A DNA stretch of 32,743 nucleotides from Nevskia sp. (lineage in GTDB: Bacteria; Pseudomonadota; Gammaproteobacteria; Nevskiales; Nevskiaceae). The notes beneath the pieces are model-generated. The model saw only the letters and a list, made by a program, of their open reading frames with translations, did not search any database and was not told the DNA's origin. Shown piece after piece: positions 16,499-24,173 of the stretch (position 1 is its first letter; each line of letters opens with the position of its first letter). The position numbers and the translations under genes were made by a program. The stretch is taken from assembly GCA_028291645.1 (NCBI GenBank), contig JAQGNU010000121.1:1-32743 (forward strand), in the 5' to 3' direction.

Positions 16499-17239
16499 CT
16501 AGAACTCCAGATCCAGCGCGCCGCATAACCAATCCAACAGCGGCGCAGCTTGGTCGAAGCACTGCAACAGCAGCTTGGGCAGCTTGGCGCTGCACAGCTC
16601 TGCGTCGCTCAAGCTTGCCGCGCAGACATAGTCCTTGCGCTTCAGATCCTCGATCAGTTCGTGTGCCGGGTCGTAGCCCTTCGGTGGCCGGCTCAAGGAT
16701 TCGCCGCCGAGTTCGCCGAACACGCGCTCGAACGCAGCCGAGCGCGTCGCGTTTTTCCAGCTCGCCGGATTGTTCAGCATGTAAGCGCGCACACGTTTCA
16801 GCGATTCCGGCATTGGATGCCAGAGGCCGCCGCCGACGTAGCTCTCGCCGGGTTGCACATGCAGATAGAAGCTCGGTGCGTCGAGCCGGCCCAGCATGCC
16901 GCTGTTGCCGTCGGCGCCGCGCAGCACTGCGCGCGTCGCCTGGTGATACAGGTTGGCGCTGCCCCAGGGCTTGTAGGGTGTTTTGTCGCCGCCGAAGCGC
17001 GTGTCGCGATAGATGCGGAACAGCGAGCCGCCCACCGGCTTCGGATTGGCGACGTAGTGCGGGCTGATCGCCTGCAGCGGTTCGGCAAGATCGCCGAGCA
17101 GCCGCAGGAAGGGCTGACGCAGCTGTTCCTCATATGCGGACTTGTGCGCGGCGAACCACTCGCGGTTATTGTTGCGCGCGAGTCCGCGCAGGAATTTGAA
17201 GCTGGCGGGCGTGAAGTAGGGCGTGGCGGATTTCGGCAT
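16499..17239 (-). CDS. DUF2461 family protein
   Basis: A 246-residue soluble protein matching DUF2461 (TIGR02453), widespread in bacteria and some fungi, with no defined biochemical role. Recognisable blocks are YFTPASFKFLRGLARNNNREWF near the N-terminus, the family hallmark GGSLFRIYRDTRF followed by DKTPYKPW, FYLHVQPGESYVGGGLW in the centre, and a region beginning PPKGYDPAHELIEDLKRKDYV. No signal peptide or membrane helix. The gene stands alone, converging with the histidine kinase gene (36-bp gap) and divergent from the aldolase gene (101-bp gap). Confidence 0.92.
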   Translation of the reverse strand: MPKSATPYFTPASFKFLRGLARNNNREWFAAHKSAYEEQLRQPFLRLLGDLAEPLQAISPHYVANPKPVGGSLFRIYRDTRFGGDKTPYKPWGSANLYHQATRAVLRGADGNSGMLGRLDAPSFYLHVQPGESYVGGGLWHPMPESLKRVRAYMLNNPASWKNATRSAAFERVFGELGGESLSRPPKGYDPAHELIEDLKRKDYVCAASLSDAELCSAKLPKLLLQCFDQAAPLLDWLCGALDLEF

Positions 17240-17340: not shown

Positions 17341-18120
17341 ATGAATGTCGCTGAAAAAAAACCGTCCACCGTCAGTGTACGCGAGCAGGTTTCCGCGGAA
17401 GAATGGCAGTTGCGCGTCGATCTGGCTGCGGCCTACCGGCTGGTCGCGCAGTTCGGTTGGGACGATCTCGTGTTCACCCACATCTCGGCGCGCGTGCCAG
17501 GGCCGGAACATCATTTCCTGATCAATCCCTATGGCTTCATGTTCGACGAGATCACCGCCAGCTCGCTGGTCAAGGTCGATCTCGCCGGCAAGGTCGTGCT
17601 GAAGACGCCGCATTTCATCAATCCGGCCGGCTTCACGATTCACAGCGCGGTGCATGCGGCGCGCGTAGATGCCAAGTGCGTGATGCACGTGCATTCGATC
17701 AATGGTGTGGCGGTGTCGGCGCAGCTTGGCGGGGTACGGCCGATTTCGCAGCAGAGCCTGTTCGTGCTGGCGTCGCTCGGCTATCACGACTACGAGGGCG
17801 TTGCGCTGCTGGAGGACGAGAAGCCGCGGCTGGTGCGCGACCTCGGCAGCAATGCGTTTCTGATGCTGCGCAATCATGGCCTGCTGACGGTCGGCGGCAG
17901 CATCGCCGATGCCTTCCTGGCGATGTATCTGTTCGAGGCCGCCTGCATGATCCAGGTGCGCGCGCAGGCCGGTGGCGGCGCCTTGATCGAAATCGCCCAA
18001 CCGATTCTCGATGGCATTCAGGCGCAGGCGGCGCAGGTCACCAAGGGTCTCGGCGGTGCCTTGGCCTGGCCCGGCCTGCTACGCAAACTGGAGCGCACAG
18101 ACCCGAGCTACAAAGATTGA
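17341..18120 (+). CDS. Class II aldolase/adducin domain protein
   Basis: A 259-residue protein of the class II aldolase/adducin family, which includes zinc-dependent fuculose- and ribulose-phosphate aldolases and epimerases. Visible metal ligands are His116 and His118 in CVMHVHS and His179 in MLRNHGLL. The acid/base Glu of sugar-phosphate aldolases is replaced: the equivalent stretch reads GFTIHSAVHAAR, as in the adducin-like bacterial subfamily, so classical aldolase activity is uncertain. A strong ribosome-binding site (GGAGGAAGAAT) precedes ATG 17341. The stop codon overlaps the predicted TTG start of the hydrolase gene, suggesting that the pair act on related small molecules. Confidence 0.9.
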   Translation: MNVAEKKPSTVSVREQVSAEEWQLRVDLAAAYRLVAQFGWDDLVFTHISARVPGPEHHFLINPYGFMFDEITASSLVKVDLAGKVVLKTPHFINPAGFTIHSAVHAARVDAKCVMHVHSINGVAVSAQLGGVRPISQQSLFVLASLGYHDYEGVALLEDEKPRLVRDLGSNAFLMLRNHGLLTVGGSIADAFLAMYLFEAACMIQVRAQAGGGALIEIAQPILDGIQAQAAQVTKGLGGALAWPGLLRKLERTDPSYKD

Positions 18121-19022
18121 TCGCGCCGACGTTTACCGACTGGCGCGAGACCGGTCAGCGCTTCGCCTATCGCGGCCAGCCGATTTTCTGGCAGTCCGGC
18201 GGCGATGGCGGTGATGGCGACGTGCTGCTGTGCATCCACGGTTTCCCCAGCGCATCCTGGGATTGGCACAAGATCTGGCCGGGCCTGTGCGCGCGTTTCG
18301 CGCGCGTGATCGCGGCCGACATGATCGGCTTCGGCTGGTCGGCCAAGCCGCGCAACTACCCGTATTCGATTTTCGATCAGGCCGATCTGCACGAGATTCT
18401 GCTGCGCGAGCAGGGCGTGCGCCGCTTCCACATCCTGGCGCACGACTACGGCGACACCGTCGCGCAGGAACTGCTGGCGCGGCACCAGGAACGCCGCGCG
18501 CGCGGCGACGCCTCGCTGGTGATCGAATCGATCTGCCTGCTGAATGGCGGCCTGTTTCCGGAGACGCATCGGCCGCGGCTGGTGCAGAAGCTGTTGCTGA
18601 CGCCGTTCGGCGCGCTGATCGCAGCGGCGATGAACCCGCGCAGTTTCAGCCGCAGCTTTACCGCAGTGTTTGGCCCGCAGACGCAGCCGTCGGCGCAGGA
18701 GCTGCAGCAATTCTGGCAGCTGCTCGAGTACAACGGCGGCAGTCGCCTGATGCATCGCCTGATCCACTACATTCCGGAGCGGCGCGCGAATCGGCCGCGC
18801 TGGGTCGGTGCGCTGCAGACCACGCAGGTGCCGCTATGCACGATCAACGGTCCGCTCGATCCGGTCTCGGGCGCGCACATGGTCGAACGCTATCGCGAAC
18901 TGGTGCCGAATGCGGACGTGGTGTCGCTGCCCGGCATCGGCCACTATCCGCAAGTCGAAGCCGCGGCAGCGGTGCTACAGGCCTACCTCGATTTTCTAAC
19001 GCGTTGCGCGGCTCATGCCTGA
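18117..19022 (+). CDS. Alpha/beta hydrolase of the epoxide hydrolase/haloalkane dehalogenase type
   Basis: About 301 residues. Seen: the oxyanion-hole motif CIHGFPSASWDW, GFGWSAKP, the nucleophile elbow HILAHDYGDTVAQE with Asp110 (Asp rather than Ser points to ester-intermediate hydrolases such as epoxide hydrolases or dehalogenases), an acidic residue in NGPLDPVSG and the catalytic His in PGIGHYPQVE. The frame is open far upstream, but homology starts near WRETGQRFAYRG. The best start is TTG 18117, overlapping the upstream stop as TTGA, which implies coupled translation. The 3' end overlaps the convergent DUF4105 gene by 10 bp. Substrate unknown. Confidence 0.87.
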   Translation: MIAPTFTDWRETGQRFAYRGQPIFWQSGGDGGDGDVLLCIHGFPSASWDWHKIWPGLCARFARVIAADMIGFGWSAKPRNYPYSIFDQADLHEILLREQGVRRFHILAHDYGDTVAQELLARHQERRARGDASLVIESICLLNGGLFPETHRPRLVQKLLLTPFGALIAAAMNPRSFSRSFTAVFGPQTQPSAQELQQFWQLLEYNGGSRLMHRLIHYIPERRANRPRWVGALQTTQVPLCTINGPLDPVSGAHMVERYRELVPNADVVSLPGIGHYPQVEAAAAVLQAYLDFLTRCAAHA

Positions 19023-20296
19023 GGCTGCTTGCGCAGCGCGAACGCCAGCGCCAGCTGCGGCGGCAGCATCAGCAAGATCCAGTGCAGGTTCTGTTGCAGA
19101 TGGCTCAGGCCGTAAGTCGCCAGCGCCAGCACGCTGCCGAGCGCGATCAGGCGCGTCAGCTGCCGCACGAACGCAGACGGCTGCCAGCTTGCGCGCAGCG
19201 ACATCAGCAATGCCGGCACCAGCAGCAGGCTGAGCGGATCGAACAGCAGCAGGTTGAGGTTGTGCCAGCCGGCCCAGTGCTGGGTGAGTCCCCAGATCGC
19301 GGCGAAAATACTGCCGACGATGCCGCTCAATAAAGCAAGCAGGCTTGCGATCAGCGCGAAGCCGATCCTGGCCGCGGCATGGCTGCGCAACTCCACCAGC
19401 CCCAACAGCAGCACTGCGAAGACCAGGCCGACGACCAGGCACGCGAGCCGGTCGTCGGGCGGCTGCGCAGGCGGCTCCGCGACGCTGCCTTCGAGCAGAC
19501 GCTGCTGCGCGCTGACCAGCGGCCGCAGCTTGCCCTGCGGGTCTTTGATCTGCACCGTCTGCACCGCATCCATCAGTACCATCGGCACGAAGCTCTCGGC
19601 CCACAGATCGACCGGACGGTCGGCAGTGGGGCCGAGCGCCAGATCCATCGCCATCGACAACAGGCGATCCGGCGCAATCAGGCGCACGGCGTCGAAACGA
19701 TAGCTCGCGGTCGTGGGTTTGCCCTGCAGCTGCAGGCTCAGCGCACCATCGAGTGCGCGATCGAGTGCATCACGCACGCGGGTCGAACAGTTCGACAGGA
19801 AATAGTCGTAGCTGTAGTTGGCGTGTTCCGGCTGCGTGTTCCAGACCAGGAAATCGCGCAGGCGCACGCGCTGCTCTGGCGTCAACGCCAGCTGCTGTTC
19901 CATCACCCAGCGCTGTTCGTGCCGATAAAGATTGAGGTCGTAGCGCAACGGATCGGCGGCGACGCGGTACGTCATGTAGCCGCGCGCGAAATTGAGGAAG
20001 AAATTCTTCTGGTTGAAATCGAACATGCCGTAGTTGTACGCCAGCGCGCTGCCGTTGCTGGCATCGCGCACCAGCAGCGCGTTATGGCCGAAGCGCTCCC
20101 AGTACAGCGCACCGGGACCGAAGGTCAGCAGACTGATCGACAGTGCTTCGCCAGGGCCGGCGCTCGGTTGATCTTCATCGTCCTGTGCCTGCGCCGGCCG
20201 CAGCAGCGCGAACGCGATCAGCGCAAACGTCGCCAGTAATCGCAGCAGCAGGATTGCGCAACGCGCGCGCGTCGCGCCGGATGCCAGCTTGCGCAT
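19013..20296 (-). CDS. DUF4105/Lnb-type periplasmic-plus-membrane protein, in the lnt position
   Basis: A 427-residue inner-membrane protein. Residues 1-38 are a signal sequence ending in AQAQ. The periplasmic domain (about 45-270) matches DUF4105, now called the Lnb N-terminal domain: conserved His71 in YWERFGHNALLV, the strand YNYGMFDF, the FARGYMTYRV block and Cys170 in YFLSNCSTRVRD. A His before a helix-capping Cys is the order of permuted NlpC/P60 (LRAT-like) acyltransferases. Five hydrophobic helices follow (about 278-425). As I recall, Lnb in Bacteroides N-acylates lipoproteins in place of Lnt. The start ATG overlaps the corC stop (TGATG). The miaB-ybeZ-ybeY-corC order normally ends in lnt, so this gene occupies that slot. 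The function is inferred. Confidence 0.85.
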   Translation of the reverse strand: MRKLASGATRARCAILLLRLLATFALIAFALLRPAQAQDDEDQPSAGPGEALSISLLTFGPGALYWERFGHNALLVRDASNGSALAYNYGMFDFNQKNFFLNFARGYMTYRVAADPLRYDLNLYRHEQRWVMEQQLALTPEQRVRLRDFLVWNTQPEHANYSYDYFLSNCSTRVRDALDRALDGALSLQLQGKPTTASYRFDAVRLIAPDRLLSMAMDLALGPTADRPVDLWAESFVPMVLMDAVQTVQIKDPQGKLRPLVSAQQRLLEGSVAEPPAQPPDDRLACLVVGLVFAVLLLGLVELRSHAAARIGFALIASLLALLSGIVGSIFAAIWGLTQHWAGWHNLNLLLFDPLSLLLVPALLMSLRASWQPSAFVRQLTRLIALGSVLALATYGLSHLQQNLHWILLMLPPQLALAFALRKQPQA

Positions 20297-21168
20297 CAGG
20301 CTTGCGCCAGCGTCACTTGCAACTGGTGCACGCGACGGCTGTCGGCGCGCTGCACGTTGAAATGGAAGCGGTCGATCTGCACGCTTTCGCCGCGGCGCGG
20401 CATGTGGCCGATGCTGTTGGTGACCAGGCCACCGACCGTATCCCAGTCCTCGATCGAGAACTCGGCGCCGAAGTAGTCGTTGAATTCCTCGACCGGCGTC
20501 AGTGCATTGACCAGATAGCGGCGATCGTCCTGCTTGAGAATGTGCGCGCCCTCGGCCTCGTCGAACTCGTCGTCGATCTCACCGACGATTTCCTCGAGCA
20601 CGTCTTCAATCGTGACGAGTCCGGCGACACCGCCGTATTCGTCGGCGACGATTGCCATGTGATTGCGGCTCTTGCGGAAATCCTTCAGCAGCACGTTGAC
20701 GCGCTTCGAGTCCGGCACGAACACCGCCGGCCGCAGCCAGCGCGTCAGATCGAATTCGCCGGCATCGAAGCCGGCGACGTTGGCGGTGAACTTGATCAAG
20801 TCCTTCGCCAGCAGGACGCCGACGATCTCGTCGCGCGAATCGCCGATCACCGGAAAGCGTGAATGGCCGGCGTCGACCACCGCCCGCAGCAATTCGTCGA
20901 GCGGCGAGGCCGCGTCCAGCACCACCATCTGCGAGCGCGGCAACATGATGTCGCGCACCGACAGTTCGCAGGTCTGGAACACGCCGCGGATCATCGCGGC
21001 GGCATCGGCATCGACCAGATTGTCTTCGCGTGCGGCTTGCAGCAGTTCCATCAGGTCTTCGCGCGAGCGCGGACTGCGCGCCATGCGACTGGTCAGCCGG
21101 CGCCACCAGTTCGCACCCTTGTAAGGGCCAGTGTGCGGATCGGAGGGACTACTGGGACCGTCGTTCAT
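20296..21168 (-). CDS. corC: CorC/YbeX cytosolic CBS-pair protein
   Basis: A 290-residue protein of the CorC/HlyC family without the DUF21 membrane domain. Order: an N-terminal basic linker (WWRRLTSRMARSPRSRED), two CBS domains (about residues 65-190; VRDIMLPRSQMVVLD, HSRFPVIGDS, LAKDL, NHMAIVADEYGGVAGLVTIEDVLEEIVGEI) and a C-terminal CorC_HlyC domain (about 205-288). In enterobacteria it is linked to magnesium/cobalt homeostasis, and its gene lies between ybeY and lnt. Here ybeY ends 114 bp upstream, and the downstream DUF4105 gene is coupled through a TGATG overlap. The start ATG 21168 has AGGA 7 bp upstream. Confidence 0.93.
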   Translation of the reverse strand: MNDGPSSPSDPHTGPYKGANWWRRLTSRMARSPRSREDLMELLQAAREDNLVDADAAAMIRGVFQTCELSVRDIMLPRSQMVVLDAASPLDELLRAVVDAGHSRFPVIGDSRDEIVGVLLAKDLIKFTANVAGFDAGEFDLTRWLRPAVFVPDSKRVNVLLKDFRKSRNHMAIVADEYGGVAGLVTIEDVLEEIVGEIDDEFDEAEGAHILKQDDRRYLVNALTPVEEFNDYFGAEFSIEDWDTVGGLVTNSIGHMPRRGESVQIDRFHFNVQRADSRRVHQLQVTLAQA

Positions 21169-21282
21169 GCTGTTCCTGTATCAAATATGCCGCGCTCTGG
21201 CAAAGCCGGGCAGGCCCAAGCCCTTGACTGCTTGATGAATCATGCTGATGCAAGGATCGCCGCAAGGGCGCCGTGCCGGGCA

Positions 21283-21735
21283 TCACTCTTCCAGATAGGG
21301 ATCGGCGAAATCGAGCCGCGCCAGAATCGAGCGCTCCAGCGATTCCATGCGCTCGGCGTCCTCGTCGTCCTCGTGATCCTCGCCCATCAGGTGCAGCACG
21401 CCGTGCACCACCATGTGCGCCCAATGCGCGCGCGGGTCCTTGCCTTGCTCGGCGGCTTCGCGCGCGACCACTGGTGCGCAGATCACCAGATCGCCCAGCA
21501 CCGACTCGGCCAGACCGTCGGCTTCGTAGGGGAACGACAGCACGTTGGTGGCGTAGTGCTTGCCGCGATAGCGGCCATTGAGTTCGGCGATTTCGGCTTC
21601 GTCGACGATGCGGATGGTGATTTCACCCTGGTCGCCGGATGCGCCGAGCGCGGCCAGCGCCCAGGCGCGCAGCGCACCCGGCGTCGGCACGCCAGTCGGC
21701 GGCACGCGCCTTTGAACGGTAATGGAACGGATCAC
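21283..21735 (-). CDS. ybeY: YbeY endoribonuclease
   Basis: A 150-residue single-strand-specific metallo-endoribonuclease involved in 16S rRNA 3' maturation and ribosome quality control. The diagnostic zinc motif [11 protein letters not shown] supplies His111, His115 and His121. The family segments [30 protein letters not shown] and [11 protein letters not shown] are present. It is of normal length. It lies 27 bp downstream of ybeZ on the same strand, the usual partner order, and 114 bp upstream of corC. Confidence 0.95.
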
Positions 21736-21762
21736 GCTTTCGGGACTTGCGGAGTGGCAGGT

Positions 21763-22803
21763 TTAGTCGGAGTGGCGCGCCGACGGGTGGCGCTGCTCAT
21801 AGGCCTCGTAAGCGCCGACGATGGCTTGCACCAGCGGATGTCTTACCACATCTTCTTTGCGGAAAAATGTGAAGCCGATGTTCGGCACGTTTTCCAGCAC
21901 CGCCATCGCATGCTTCAAGCCGCTGCTGACGCCGCGCTGCAGATCGATCTGGGTGACGTCGCCGGTCACCACCGCGACCGAGCCGAAGCCGATGCGGGTC
22001 AGGAACATCTTCATCTGTTCGACGGTGGTGTTCTGCGCTTCGTCGAGAATCACGAAGGATTCATTCAGCGTGCGGCCGCGCATGAATGCCAGCGGCGCCA
22101 CTTCAATCACGTTGCGCTCGACCAGCCGCGCGACTTTTTCGAAGCCGAGCATTTCGTAGAGCGCGTCGTACAGCGGCCGCAAATACGGATCGATCTTCTG
22201 TGCCATATCGCCGGGCAAGAAGCCGAGTTTCTCGCCGGCCTCGACCGCCGGACGCACCAGCACCAGACGACGCACACGATCGCGCTCCAGCGCCTGCACC
22301 GCGCTGGCGACGGCCAGATACGTCTTGCCGGTGCCGGCCGGTCCGATGCCGAACGTCAGGTCGTGGCTGGCGATTTTCTGCAGATAGGCTTTCTGCATTT
22401 CGCCGCGACCGCGCACCACGCCGCGCTTGGTGCGGACGGCAACATCGGCCGGTCCGCGCGGCGTGCGTTCGGCGGCGCCATCGCCGGCGTCATCGGGACC
22501 ATGCTCGCGCAGCGCCAGATGCACTTGCTCGCCATCGATCGCGCTGTCTGCGGTCAGTTCGAACAGTTCGCGCAGCAGCAGTTCGGCGCGCGCGATCTCG
22601 ACCGGCGGGCCCAGCAAGCGATAACGGTTGGCGCGATTGCGAATCTCGATGCCGAGCCTAAGTTCGATCGCGCGCAGATGCTCGTCGAACGGGCCATTCA
22701 GATTGGCCAGCCGCATGCTGTCGTCCGGTTCCAGCAGCAGATCGATCGACGGTTGTGCGGCGGCAGGGGCCTCCAGGCTGCGTGGGTCCTGGGTCGAAGT
22801 CAT
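21763..22803 (-). CDS. ybeZ: PhoH-like ATPase (YbeZ)
   Basis: A 346-residue PhoH-family P-loop ATPase, the usual partner of YbeY. An N-terminal KH-like region (about residues 28-85; [30 protein letters not shown]) precedes the ATPase. Walker A is GPAGTGKT at 154-161. Walker B is in [11 protein letters not shown], and the PhoH signatures [15 protein letters not shown] and GRTLNESF are intact, as is [11 protein letters not shown]. An acidic, Ala-rich linker at about 102-115 is variable. Its ATG overlaps the miaB stop by 4 bp (ATGA), so translation is coupled. Confidence 0.95.
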
Positions 22804-24173
22804 GCGCTGACGGCCTCATCAATCGTCTCGCCTGCGGCGACGCCGATCAGTTCGCCACGCAGCGAATTGGTCAGCGATTCGGTCACGCACACTTCGGCGA
22901 AATGGCCGATCAGCGCTTCCGCGCCGTCGAAGTTGAGCCAGCGGTTGCATGGCGTTTTGCCGGCGAGCTGGCCGTCGCCGCGCCGCGAAACTTTTTCGAC
23001 CAGCACGGTCTGTACGGTGCCGATCAGACGCTCGGTATAGGCAATGCCGAAATCGCGAATGCGCGCCTGCAGGCGTTCGAGGCGTGCCTGTTTCACGTCC
23101 ATGCTGACGCCGTCGCGCAGATTCGCCGCCGGCGTGCCGGGACGCGGACTGTAGACGAACGAGAACGCGGCATCGAAGCGCGCGGCTTCGATCAGTTCCA
23201 TCGTCGCTTCGAAATCGGCTTCGCTCTCGGATGGGAAGCCGACGATGAAATCCGACGACAGCGCGATCTCTGGACGCAAGGCACGCAGCCGCGCGATTTT
23301 GTCGAGGAACTGCGCACGCGTGTAGCCGCGTTTCATCATGCCTAAAATGCGATCGGAGCCGGACTGTACCGGCAAATGCAGCACGCCCGCGAGCTTCGGC
23401 TCGCTCGCATAGGCATCGATCAGCGCATCGCTGAAATGCGCCGGATGCGACGTGGTGAAGCGGATGCGGCCGAGCGTCTCGAAGCGCGCCAGGATGTGGA
23501 TCAGCAGTGCCAGGTCGCAAGTTCCGCCGTCGGCCATCGCGCCCCCCATTGCACCTTGGTAGGCATTGACGTTCTGGCCGAGCAGCGTGATTTCGCGCAC
23601 GCCTTGGCGGACCAGCGCATCGACTTCGGCGAGCACGTCGTCGAGCGGTCGCGAGACTTCTTCGCCGCGCGTGTACGGCACGATGCAGAACGTGCAGTAT
23701 TTGCTGCAGCCCTCCATGATCGACACGAACGCGGTCGGACCTTCTTTGCGCGGTTCCGGCAGGTGATCGAACTTTTCGATTTCGGGGAAGCGGATGTCGA
23801 TCGCGGCCTTGTGCGTGCGGCGCGCCTGATCGAGCAAGGCGGGCAGCCGGTGCAGCGTCTGCGGGCCGAACACCAGGTCGACCGCCGGCGCGCGGCGCGC
23901 GATGGCTTCACCTTCCTGGCTCGCCACACAGCCGCCGACACCGATCACGCGGCCCGGCTTGGCGTCCTTCCATTCCTTCAGGCGGCCCAGTTCCGAGAAC
24001 ACTTTCTCGGACGCCTTCTCACGTACCGAGCAGGTGTTGAGCAGCACCAGGTCGGCGGCTTCGGGATCGCTGGTCAGTTCATAACCATGCGAGGCCTTGA
24101 GCACGTCTGCCATCTTCGACGAGTCGTACTCGTTCATCTGGCAGCCGAAGGTTTTGATCAGCAACTTCGACAT
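22800..24173 (-). CDS. miaB: tRNA-2-methylthio-N6-dimethylallyladenosine synthase MiaB
   Basis: A 457-residue radical-SAM methylthiotransferase that adds a methylthio group to i6A37 of tRNAs. The N-terminal UPF0004 domain has the auxiliary-cluster cysteines Cys11 ([11 protein letters not shown]), Cys48 ([12 protein letters not shown]) and Cys82 ([10 protein letters not shown]). The radical-SAM triad is Cys156, Cys160 and Cys163 in [12 protein letters not shown]. The C-terminal TRAM domain holds NRWLNFDG and ELIGV. The frame extends upstream to 24296, but the ATG at 24173 ([11 protein letters not shown]) is the family start and lies below a TATACT -10 element. It heads the miaB-ybeZ-ybeY-corC-DUF4105 unit. 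Confidence 0.96.

Follow-up and report, generated by a model that had tools for sequence, protein, structure and literature searches.

The gene that follows corC in a 32,743-nucleotide stretch of DNA from Nevskia sp. (contig JAQGNU010000121.1 of assembly GCA_028291645.1; hereafter the window, meaning the whole stretch that was analyzed) very probably encodes a gammaproteobacterial Lnb, a predicted lipoprotein N-acyltransferase that is unrelated to the classical apolipoprotein N-acyltransferase Lnt and, judging from its sequence, would hold both the job and the operon place of that enzyme. The gene (positions 19013-20296, minus strand) encodes a protein of 427 amino acids and overlaps corC by one base within the motif TGATG, the joint between the two genes that a preliminary description of this DNA had pointed out. 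Lnb of Bacteroides was experimentally identified as a lipoprotein N-acyltransferase in 2024 (Armbruster et al., PNAS, as represented in citing papers). The window gene is regarded as an instance of non-orthologous displacement at a single operon slot, by a kind of enzyme that was already known. The statement of the preliminary description that lnt is the normal occupant of the position downstream of corC agrees with 11 of the 14 Lnt loci that were fetched outside the family of Nevskia, Solimonas and Hydrocarboniphaga, in which corC was located upstream.

Both domains of the Lnb architecture were detected in the window protein above the Pfam cut-offs, which verified that a DUF4105-type gene follows corC. 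Lnb_N (PF13387, which we take to be the former DUF4105) matched residues 50-195 with 84.7 bits (cut-off 22.2, E 7.6e-24) and 5TMH_Lnb (PF25221) matched residues 291-378 with 29.9 bits (cut-off 25.2, E 6.5e-7). The NCBIfam Lnb model NF051878, which matches only a Bacteroides among 14 control genomes, yielded a near full-length match to residues 24-369 (192.2 bits, E 1.2e-56). Neither the LNT_N domain nor the nitrilase domain was matched in the Pfam search of the window protein, which is thus not an Lnt. The signal peptide and the five C-terminal helices that had been recognized from the letters alone were found again; the N-terminus can be read directly as a signal peptide ending in PAQAQ, and the AlphaFold model contains five long helices at the C-terminal end. 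The two-domain plan is common to the window protein and Bacteroides Lnb (NF051878; PF13387 with PF25221), but the genomic setting differs, as the window gene is part of the corC operon and both of the two annotated Bacteroidales copies adjoin a gene of the alkaline phosphatase family. Lnt (PF20154 with a nitrilase domain) employs a Glu-Lys-Cys active site of the nitrilase type. It has the slot behind corC and presumably the reaction step in common with the window protein, whereas the proteins themselves are unrelated.

The preliminary description had placed His71 and Cys170 in the periplasmic domain. Both residues are located there and are invariant in all 150 rows of the Lnb alignment (145/145 gammaproteobacterial and 5/5 Bacteroidota rows), as are Gly70, Pro238, His340 and Asn346. 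Several of the 145 gammaproteobacterial rows represent one gene fetched twice, and the five Bacteroidota rows were obtained from named plasmid records. His340 and Asn346 are found just past the second C-terminal helix, on the periplasmic side by helix count, and are probably part of the lipid site. The AlphaFold model (mean predicted local distance difference test score of 88, predicted template modeling score of 0.79) is a confident one and shows a single helix at the N-terminus, an alpha/beta domain and the five long C-terminal helices; a strand begins with His71 and a helix with Cys170. Among the structures that were re-aligned to this model with VIA-align, the closest solved ones were TseH (Z 12.1 over 151 residues, 3.1 Å) and YiiX (Z 10.4), followed by the Bacillus cereus structure 3kw0 (Z 10.4) and then Aichivirus 2A (Z 8.0). 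A Foldseek search with the model returned nothing at E <= 0.001 (TseH was obtained at 0.021), and the statement about the fold is for this reason based on VIA-align. Searching the PDB by sequence, with the alignment of Lnb as the query, likewise gave nothing meaningful (best E 0.12). The solved proteins closest in fold are of the permuted papain-like type, in agreement with the earlier suggestion that the His-then-Cys order fits this type of enzyme. In the accessible part of PMC12994826, the TseH, YiiX, LRAT and DUF4105 clades are classed jointly as permuted NlpC/P60 enzymes. The window protein has the fold of its periplasmic domain in common with TseH, YiiX and 3kw0, and the permuted catalytic core in common with the TseH and YiiX clades. 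The solved chains of these three proteins comprise 182-189 residues and therefore lack the five-helix membrane domain, and the proteins have other roles.

A course of the reaction that would fit these features can be proposed, in which the reaction itself, the acyl donor and the triacylated product are conjectural. In the inner membrane, Lgt and Lsp would produce S-diacylglyceryl apolipoprotein. Within the periplasmic permuted papain-like domain, Cys170, activated by His71, would accept, in thioester linkage, an acyl chain donated by a phospholipid and would pass it on to the free alpha-amine of the first cysteine of the lipoprotein, which would yield the triacylated lipoprotein. The five-helix membrane domain, with the invariant His340 and Asn346 near its periplasmic face, may hold the lipid substrates at the site. 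Lgt, the maker of the substrate, was detected in 54 of the 58 genomes of the family, including the genome from which the window was obtained. This genome contains two Lgt genes, G000:C28:210-962 (E 3.1e-77) and the divergent G000:C61:4123-4830 (E 1.1e-41), and a second Lgt gene is also present in G050 and G025.

Lnb and Lnt were then compared across these 58 genomes, with a strong Lnb defined by E < 1e-40 and a full-score Lnt by at least 112 bits to PF20154. Lnb was detected in 44 genomes and full-score Lnt in eight, while no genome had both and six had neither. The expectation that Lnt and the DUF4105 protein would be mutually exclusive among relatives was thus borne out for full-score Lnt. 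Fisher tests were given no weight here, since related genomes do not count as independent. A search for Lnt in the window's own genome (3.83 Mb, 91% complete), as proposed in the preliminary description, found no match to LNT_N, and a normal lnt elsewhere, named there as the observation that would speak against the idea if it recurred in all relatives with this arrangement, was found neither in this genome nor, as a full-score Lnt, in any of the 44 Lnb genomes. Five of the six genomes with neither enzyme also contained no close CorC (best match below 120 bits), so that the slot itself is missing from their available sequence; two of these five (G041 and G044) were also without Lgt, and another (G035) is 98% complete. 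In the sixth genome (G009), the contig ends approximately 90 bases past corC. Judged from the searches for CorC and Lgt, assembly gaps are the likely reason for the absences in these genomes, and true loss is the less likely one.

The preliminary description had left the choice between a replacement and a partner of Lnt. A partner or helper of Lnt would fit the position beside corC, the usual place of lnt, but such a role is extremely improbable, as Lnb and full-score Lnt occurred together in none of the 58 genomes of the family and in none of 200 genomes sampled from the order that includes genome G096 (Xanthomonadales by its named members). The replacement part of the proposal stood, given the absence of full-score Lnt from Lnb genomes and the use of the same slot, and the partnership part did not; replacement rather than partnership is supported as the best reading. 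A second, long DUF4105 protein (open reading frames of 627-834 amino acids; for example G019:C1:1553367-1553723 and G021:C1:496612-496968) was considered as a stand-in for Lnt and rejected, since it is found in both Lnt- and Lnb-bearing genomes. It is larger than the window protein, with which it has only part of the Lnb_N domain in common, and it reached only 19-30 bits at approximately positions 44-156 of the Lnb profile. In family f6 of the window's own order (G062, G071, G084 and others), up to four LNT_N matches were observed per genome.

The slot behind corC was surveyed in the window, 43 other Lnb loci and the eight full-score Lnt loci of the family. The corC gene was located upstream and on the same strand in all 44 Lnb loci and all eight Lnt loci. 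The distance from the corC stop codon to the expected start of the following gene was within approximately 100 bases in every Lnt locus and in 42 of the 44 Lnb loci (282 and 550 bases in the other two). With 44 of 44 family loci, the corC-Lnb gene order is far beyond chance. The flanks beyond the slot are common to some loci of both types; aldolase-like homologues were found, for example, in L063 (Lnb) and in L090 and L092 (Lnt), and DUF2461-like homologues in L045 (Lnb) and L088 (Lnt). No fetched locus contained lnb and lnt together behind corC, and no search was made for lnt relics beside lnb.

A tree of the neighboring MiaB, YbeZ and YbeY sequences (73 rows, 915 columns) was used to count how often the occupant of the slot changed. 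The neighboring-gene trees are quick ones, and the row of G843 sits on a very long branch and its placement is unsure. In this tree, rows with Lnb and rows with Lnt are intermingled within the family, which amounts to four switches there and six across the whole tree, five of which are forced by branches with a Shimodaira-Hasegawa-like approximate likelihood ratio test (SH-aLRT) value of at least 95. A FastTree analysis of MiaB, YbeZ, YbeY and CorC resulted in identical switch counts. Within the family, Lnt is carried by groups g6, g5 and g12 and by a pair within g11, a genus-level group that also contains Solimonas terrae, soli, flava and variicoloris and in which close relatives differ in the enzyme that they hold. 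One slot has therewith been held by two unrelated enzymes, with at least four switches in the family. Parsimony favored Lnb as the ancestral state of the family, with four changes versus seven if only changes from Lnt to Lnb were allowed. In the Lnt gene tree, the Lnt sequences of the family form one clade beside the other Lnt of the order, as in ordinary descent, and the approximately unbiased (AU) test did not reject the neighboring-gene tree for the Lnt rows of this family (f1; AU 0.39, and 0.035 with outgroups). Lnb rejected the tree of its neighbors (p 6e-6), and so did CorC as a control (p 2e-4); in cross tests, most genes rejected the trees of most other genes. Because the control genes behave alike, the AU tests say nothing on a transfer of Lnb.

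Beyond the family, Lnb was detected at E 1e-15 in five of 369 genomes sampled evenly from the class and in ten of 398 sampled evenly from the phylum, and all of these belonged to the window's own family or to families f18 and f185. The nine Lnb genes of f18 and f185 in these samples all had corC upstream. Both families are included in the order of G096, where Lnb was present in 189 of the 200 sampled genomes (36/36 in f18 and 33/33 in f185). In the tree of MiaB, YbeZ and YbeY, Luteibacter and Rhodanobacter cluster with f185, and Dokdonella and Rudaea with f18. We infer that f18 corresponds to the Xanthomonadaceae, which would be in keeping with the publications on Xanthomonas that are cited below. 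Matches to PF20154 were obtained in 44 of the 200 genomes, three of them full-score and 41 weaker (E 1.8e-20 to 9.5e-4). The three full-score Lnt (G832, G841 and G843; 93-117 bits) are all encoded behind corC in genomes without Lnb, and the separation of Lnb from full-score Lnt that the preliminary description had anticipated thus extended to this order (0 of 200 with both). Eight of the 200 genomes had neither Lnb nor a full-score Lnt.

The association of Lnb with corC was also observed in this order, where 16 of 17 fetched Lnb loci had corC upstream. In seven of these 16, no miaB, ybeZ or ybeY was present in the fetched stretch, and the tie of Lnb is for this reason considered to be to corC. 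Loci in which corC adjoins lnb in this manner include L242, L244, L246 and L248, a pattern that may point to a connection of CorC with lipoprotein N-acylation, whichever enzyme performs it. A scan of named genomes, limited to the best 80 of 499 relatives, covered Nevskia, Solimonas, Hydrocarboniphaga, Rhodanobacter, Dyella, Luteibacter, Dokdonella, Tahibacter, Rudaea and other genera; no record of Xanthomonas, Xylella or Stenotrophomonas was among these 80 loci. The corC gene was upstream of Lnb in 75 of them, within 200 bases in 68, at 203-335 bases in six and at 853 bases in one; Solimonas terrae and S. flava are among the species in which lnb was observed behind corC. Among the other five loci, the end of a corC-like frame lies upstream in L220, the Lnb match begins at the end of the contig in L193, and corC was not found near Lnb in L169, L199 and L216.

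Several observations weigh against the reading of the window gene as an Lnb that took over from Lnt, and the first group of them concerns weak Lnt-like proteins. The exclusion may not be absolute, as 40 of the 41 genomes with weaker PF20154 matches in the order of G096 also carry Lnb (40 of 189 Lnb genomes), and one Lnb genome of the window's family, G006, has an extra weak Lnt-like match of 44 bits. G992 contains Lnb (L253:7827-9023) with no corC found in the fetched stretch, and its Lnt-like protein (L229) is the most canonical of eight that were examined (28 of 43 residues, with the motif CWEN), which makes G992 the best candidate, on sequence grounds, for the coexistence of Lnb and an Lnt-type enzyme. 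A divergent Lnt-like nitrilase elsewhere in the genome could accordingly perform N-acylation, with Lnb being redundant or doing something else. The eight examined proteins do retain the Glu, Lys and Cys positions that we take to be the catalytic triad of Lnt. These eight nevertheless keep only 19-28 of the 43 residues that do not vary among 19 canonical Lnt sequences, and the C-x-E motif of canonical Lnt is altered in seven of the eight (to CLDD or CLDA in six and to CKDM in one). No corC was found in any of the nine such loci of the order of G096 that were scanned with approximately 1.5 kb of flanking sequence, and matches of this kind were missing from the window's own genome and from 149 of the 189 Lnb genomes in that order. 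The eight proteins seem to be offshoots of the Lnt family, and N-acylation by a divergent nitrilase is very unlikely. In L224 and L230-L235 of the same order, Lnt-like nitrilase proteins are encoded in open reading frames of 821-1079 amino acids, a length that suggests a possible fusion with a further domain. The six of them that were included in the comparison have CLDD or CLDA instead of C-x-E.

The second group of these observations concerns the window protein and its activity. The equivalog cut-off of NF051878 (550 bits) was not reached by the window protein, which is therefore placed in the wider Lnb architecture and not in the NF051878 equivalog; the same cut-off was reached by none of the 58 genomes of the family and by none of the 200 of the order of G096. 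The window protein is 31-34% identical to the Bacteroidota Lnb that were found, over approximately half of its length. No experimental study of an Lnb, or of the N-acylation of lipoproteins, was found for these gammaproteobacteria, and the substrate of Lnb could differ here. N-acylation is, moreover, not essential in every gammaproteobacterium and some tolerate the loss of lnt (PMC11784454, accessible part), so that the absence of Lnt alone demands no substitute. On this basis, lineages without Lnt might make diacylated lipoproteins only, with the DUF4105 protein acting elsewhere in the envelope, for example as a phospholipase or on another acyl acceptor. The accessible part of PMC10368991 is in keeping with such a situation, as lnt was not identified in Xanthomonas campestris B100 and a diacyl anchor was modeled for that reason. 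A diacyl-only state would, however, leave unexplained why this protein is encoded in the slot of Lnt where full-score Lnt is absent, at least four times in one family, and why its catalytic and membrane-domain residues match those of Bacteroidota Lnb. It is regarded as an unlikely explanation, and the displacement of Lnt by Lnb is preferred.

The genes upstream of lnb in the window are encoded on the minus strand in the classic order miaB-ybeZ-ybeY-corC, as previously described, and each of them scored above the cut-off of its family. They encode the tRNA methylthiotransferase MiaB (22800-24173; TIGR01574, 555.8 bits, cut-off 355.3), the PhoH-like ATPase YbeZ (21763-22803; PF02562, 315.6 bits, cut-off 27, E 1.6e-94), the rRNA maturation RNase YbeY (21283-21735; PF02130, and TIGR00043 with 140.1 bits, cut-off 45) and CorC (20296-21168; a CBS pair, PF00571, with the CorC_HlyC domain PF03471 at 72.6 bits, cut-off 27). 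The lnb-like gene (PF13387 with PF25221) is followed beyond the slot by a gene on the plus strand, and thus on the opposite strand (17341-18120), which we take to be class II aldolase-like, and by a second flanking gene on the minus strand (16499-17239), presumably DUF2461-like; both were used as homology anchors only. A different situation was observed elsewhere in the class in G130 (reported to be 100% complete), which contains miaB-ybeZ-ybeY-corC (L116 5468-8848) and in which neither Lnt nor Lnb was found. Only short reading frames and no Lnt relic were detected behind corC in this genome, and the gene past these frames is presumably formamidopyrimidine-DNA-glycosylase-like.

The principle of an exchange between DUF4105 proteins and Lnt is already in print, since the accessible part of PMC12994826 reports that Lnt has repeatedly taken the place of DUF4105 proteins, in three genomic contexts, and the corC slot may be one of these three. 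The same part of that source describes the DUF4105 clade as primarily, not only, from Bacteroides, with one branch rich in Firmicutes. According to a table in PMC7828034, as far as accessible, the universal single-copy genes that two Xanthomonas species and Xylella lack include the one for apolipoprotein N-acyltransferase. No paper on Lnb in Nevskiaceae or Xanthomonadales, or tying Lnb to the missing Lnt of Xanthomonas, was found in a search that left subscription journals and preprints mostly outside. What seems to be new is the presence of Lnb across these gammaproteobacteria, its exclusion with full-score Lnt and the consequence for lineages that were described as being without N-acylation.

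It appears probable that the Xanthomonadales (which would include Xanthomonas, Xylella and Stenotrophomonas) and the family of Nevskia and Solimonas largely swapped Lnt for a Bacteroides-type Lnb, with repeated exchange at the corC slot, and that lineages considered to be diacylated are in fact triacylated by Lnb. Lnb may thus explain why Lnt was not identified in a published study of Xanthomonas campestris (PMC10368991, accessible part), and genome readings in which the absence of Lnt was equated with diacyl lipoproteins, as in that study, would need correction. N-acylation is the step that admits lipoproteins to the Lol pathway in model gammaproteobacteria, and enzymes of lipoprotein maturation are studied as drug targets (PMC11784454, accessible part); if Lnb acts as proposed, inhibitors of Lnt would miss a large order. 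The common operon slot would provide a natural experiment on the handover of one step between two enzymes, even inside the genus-level group g11. These findings suggest that lineages thought to lack the step that adds the third fatty acid carry it out by other means.

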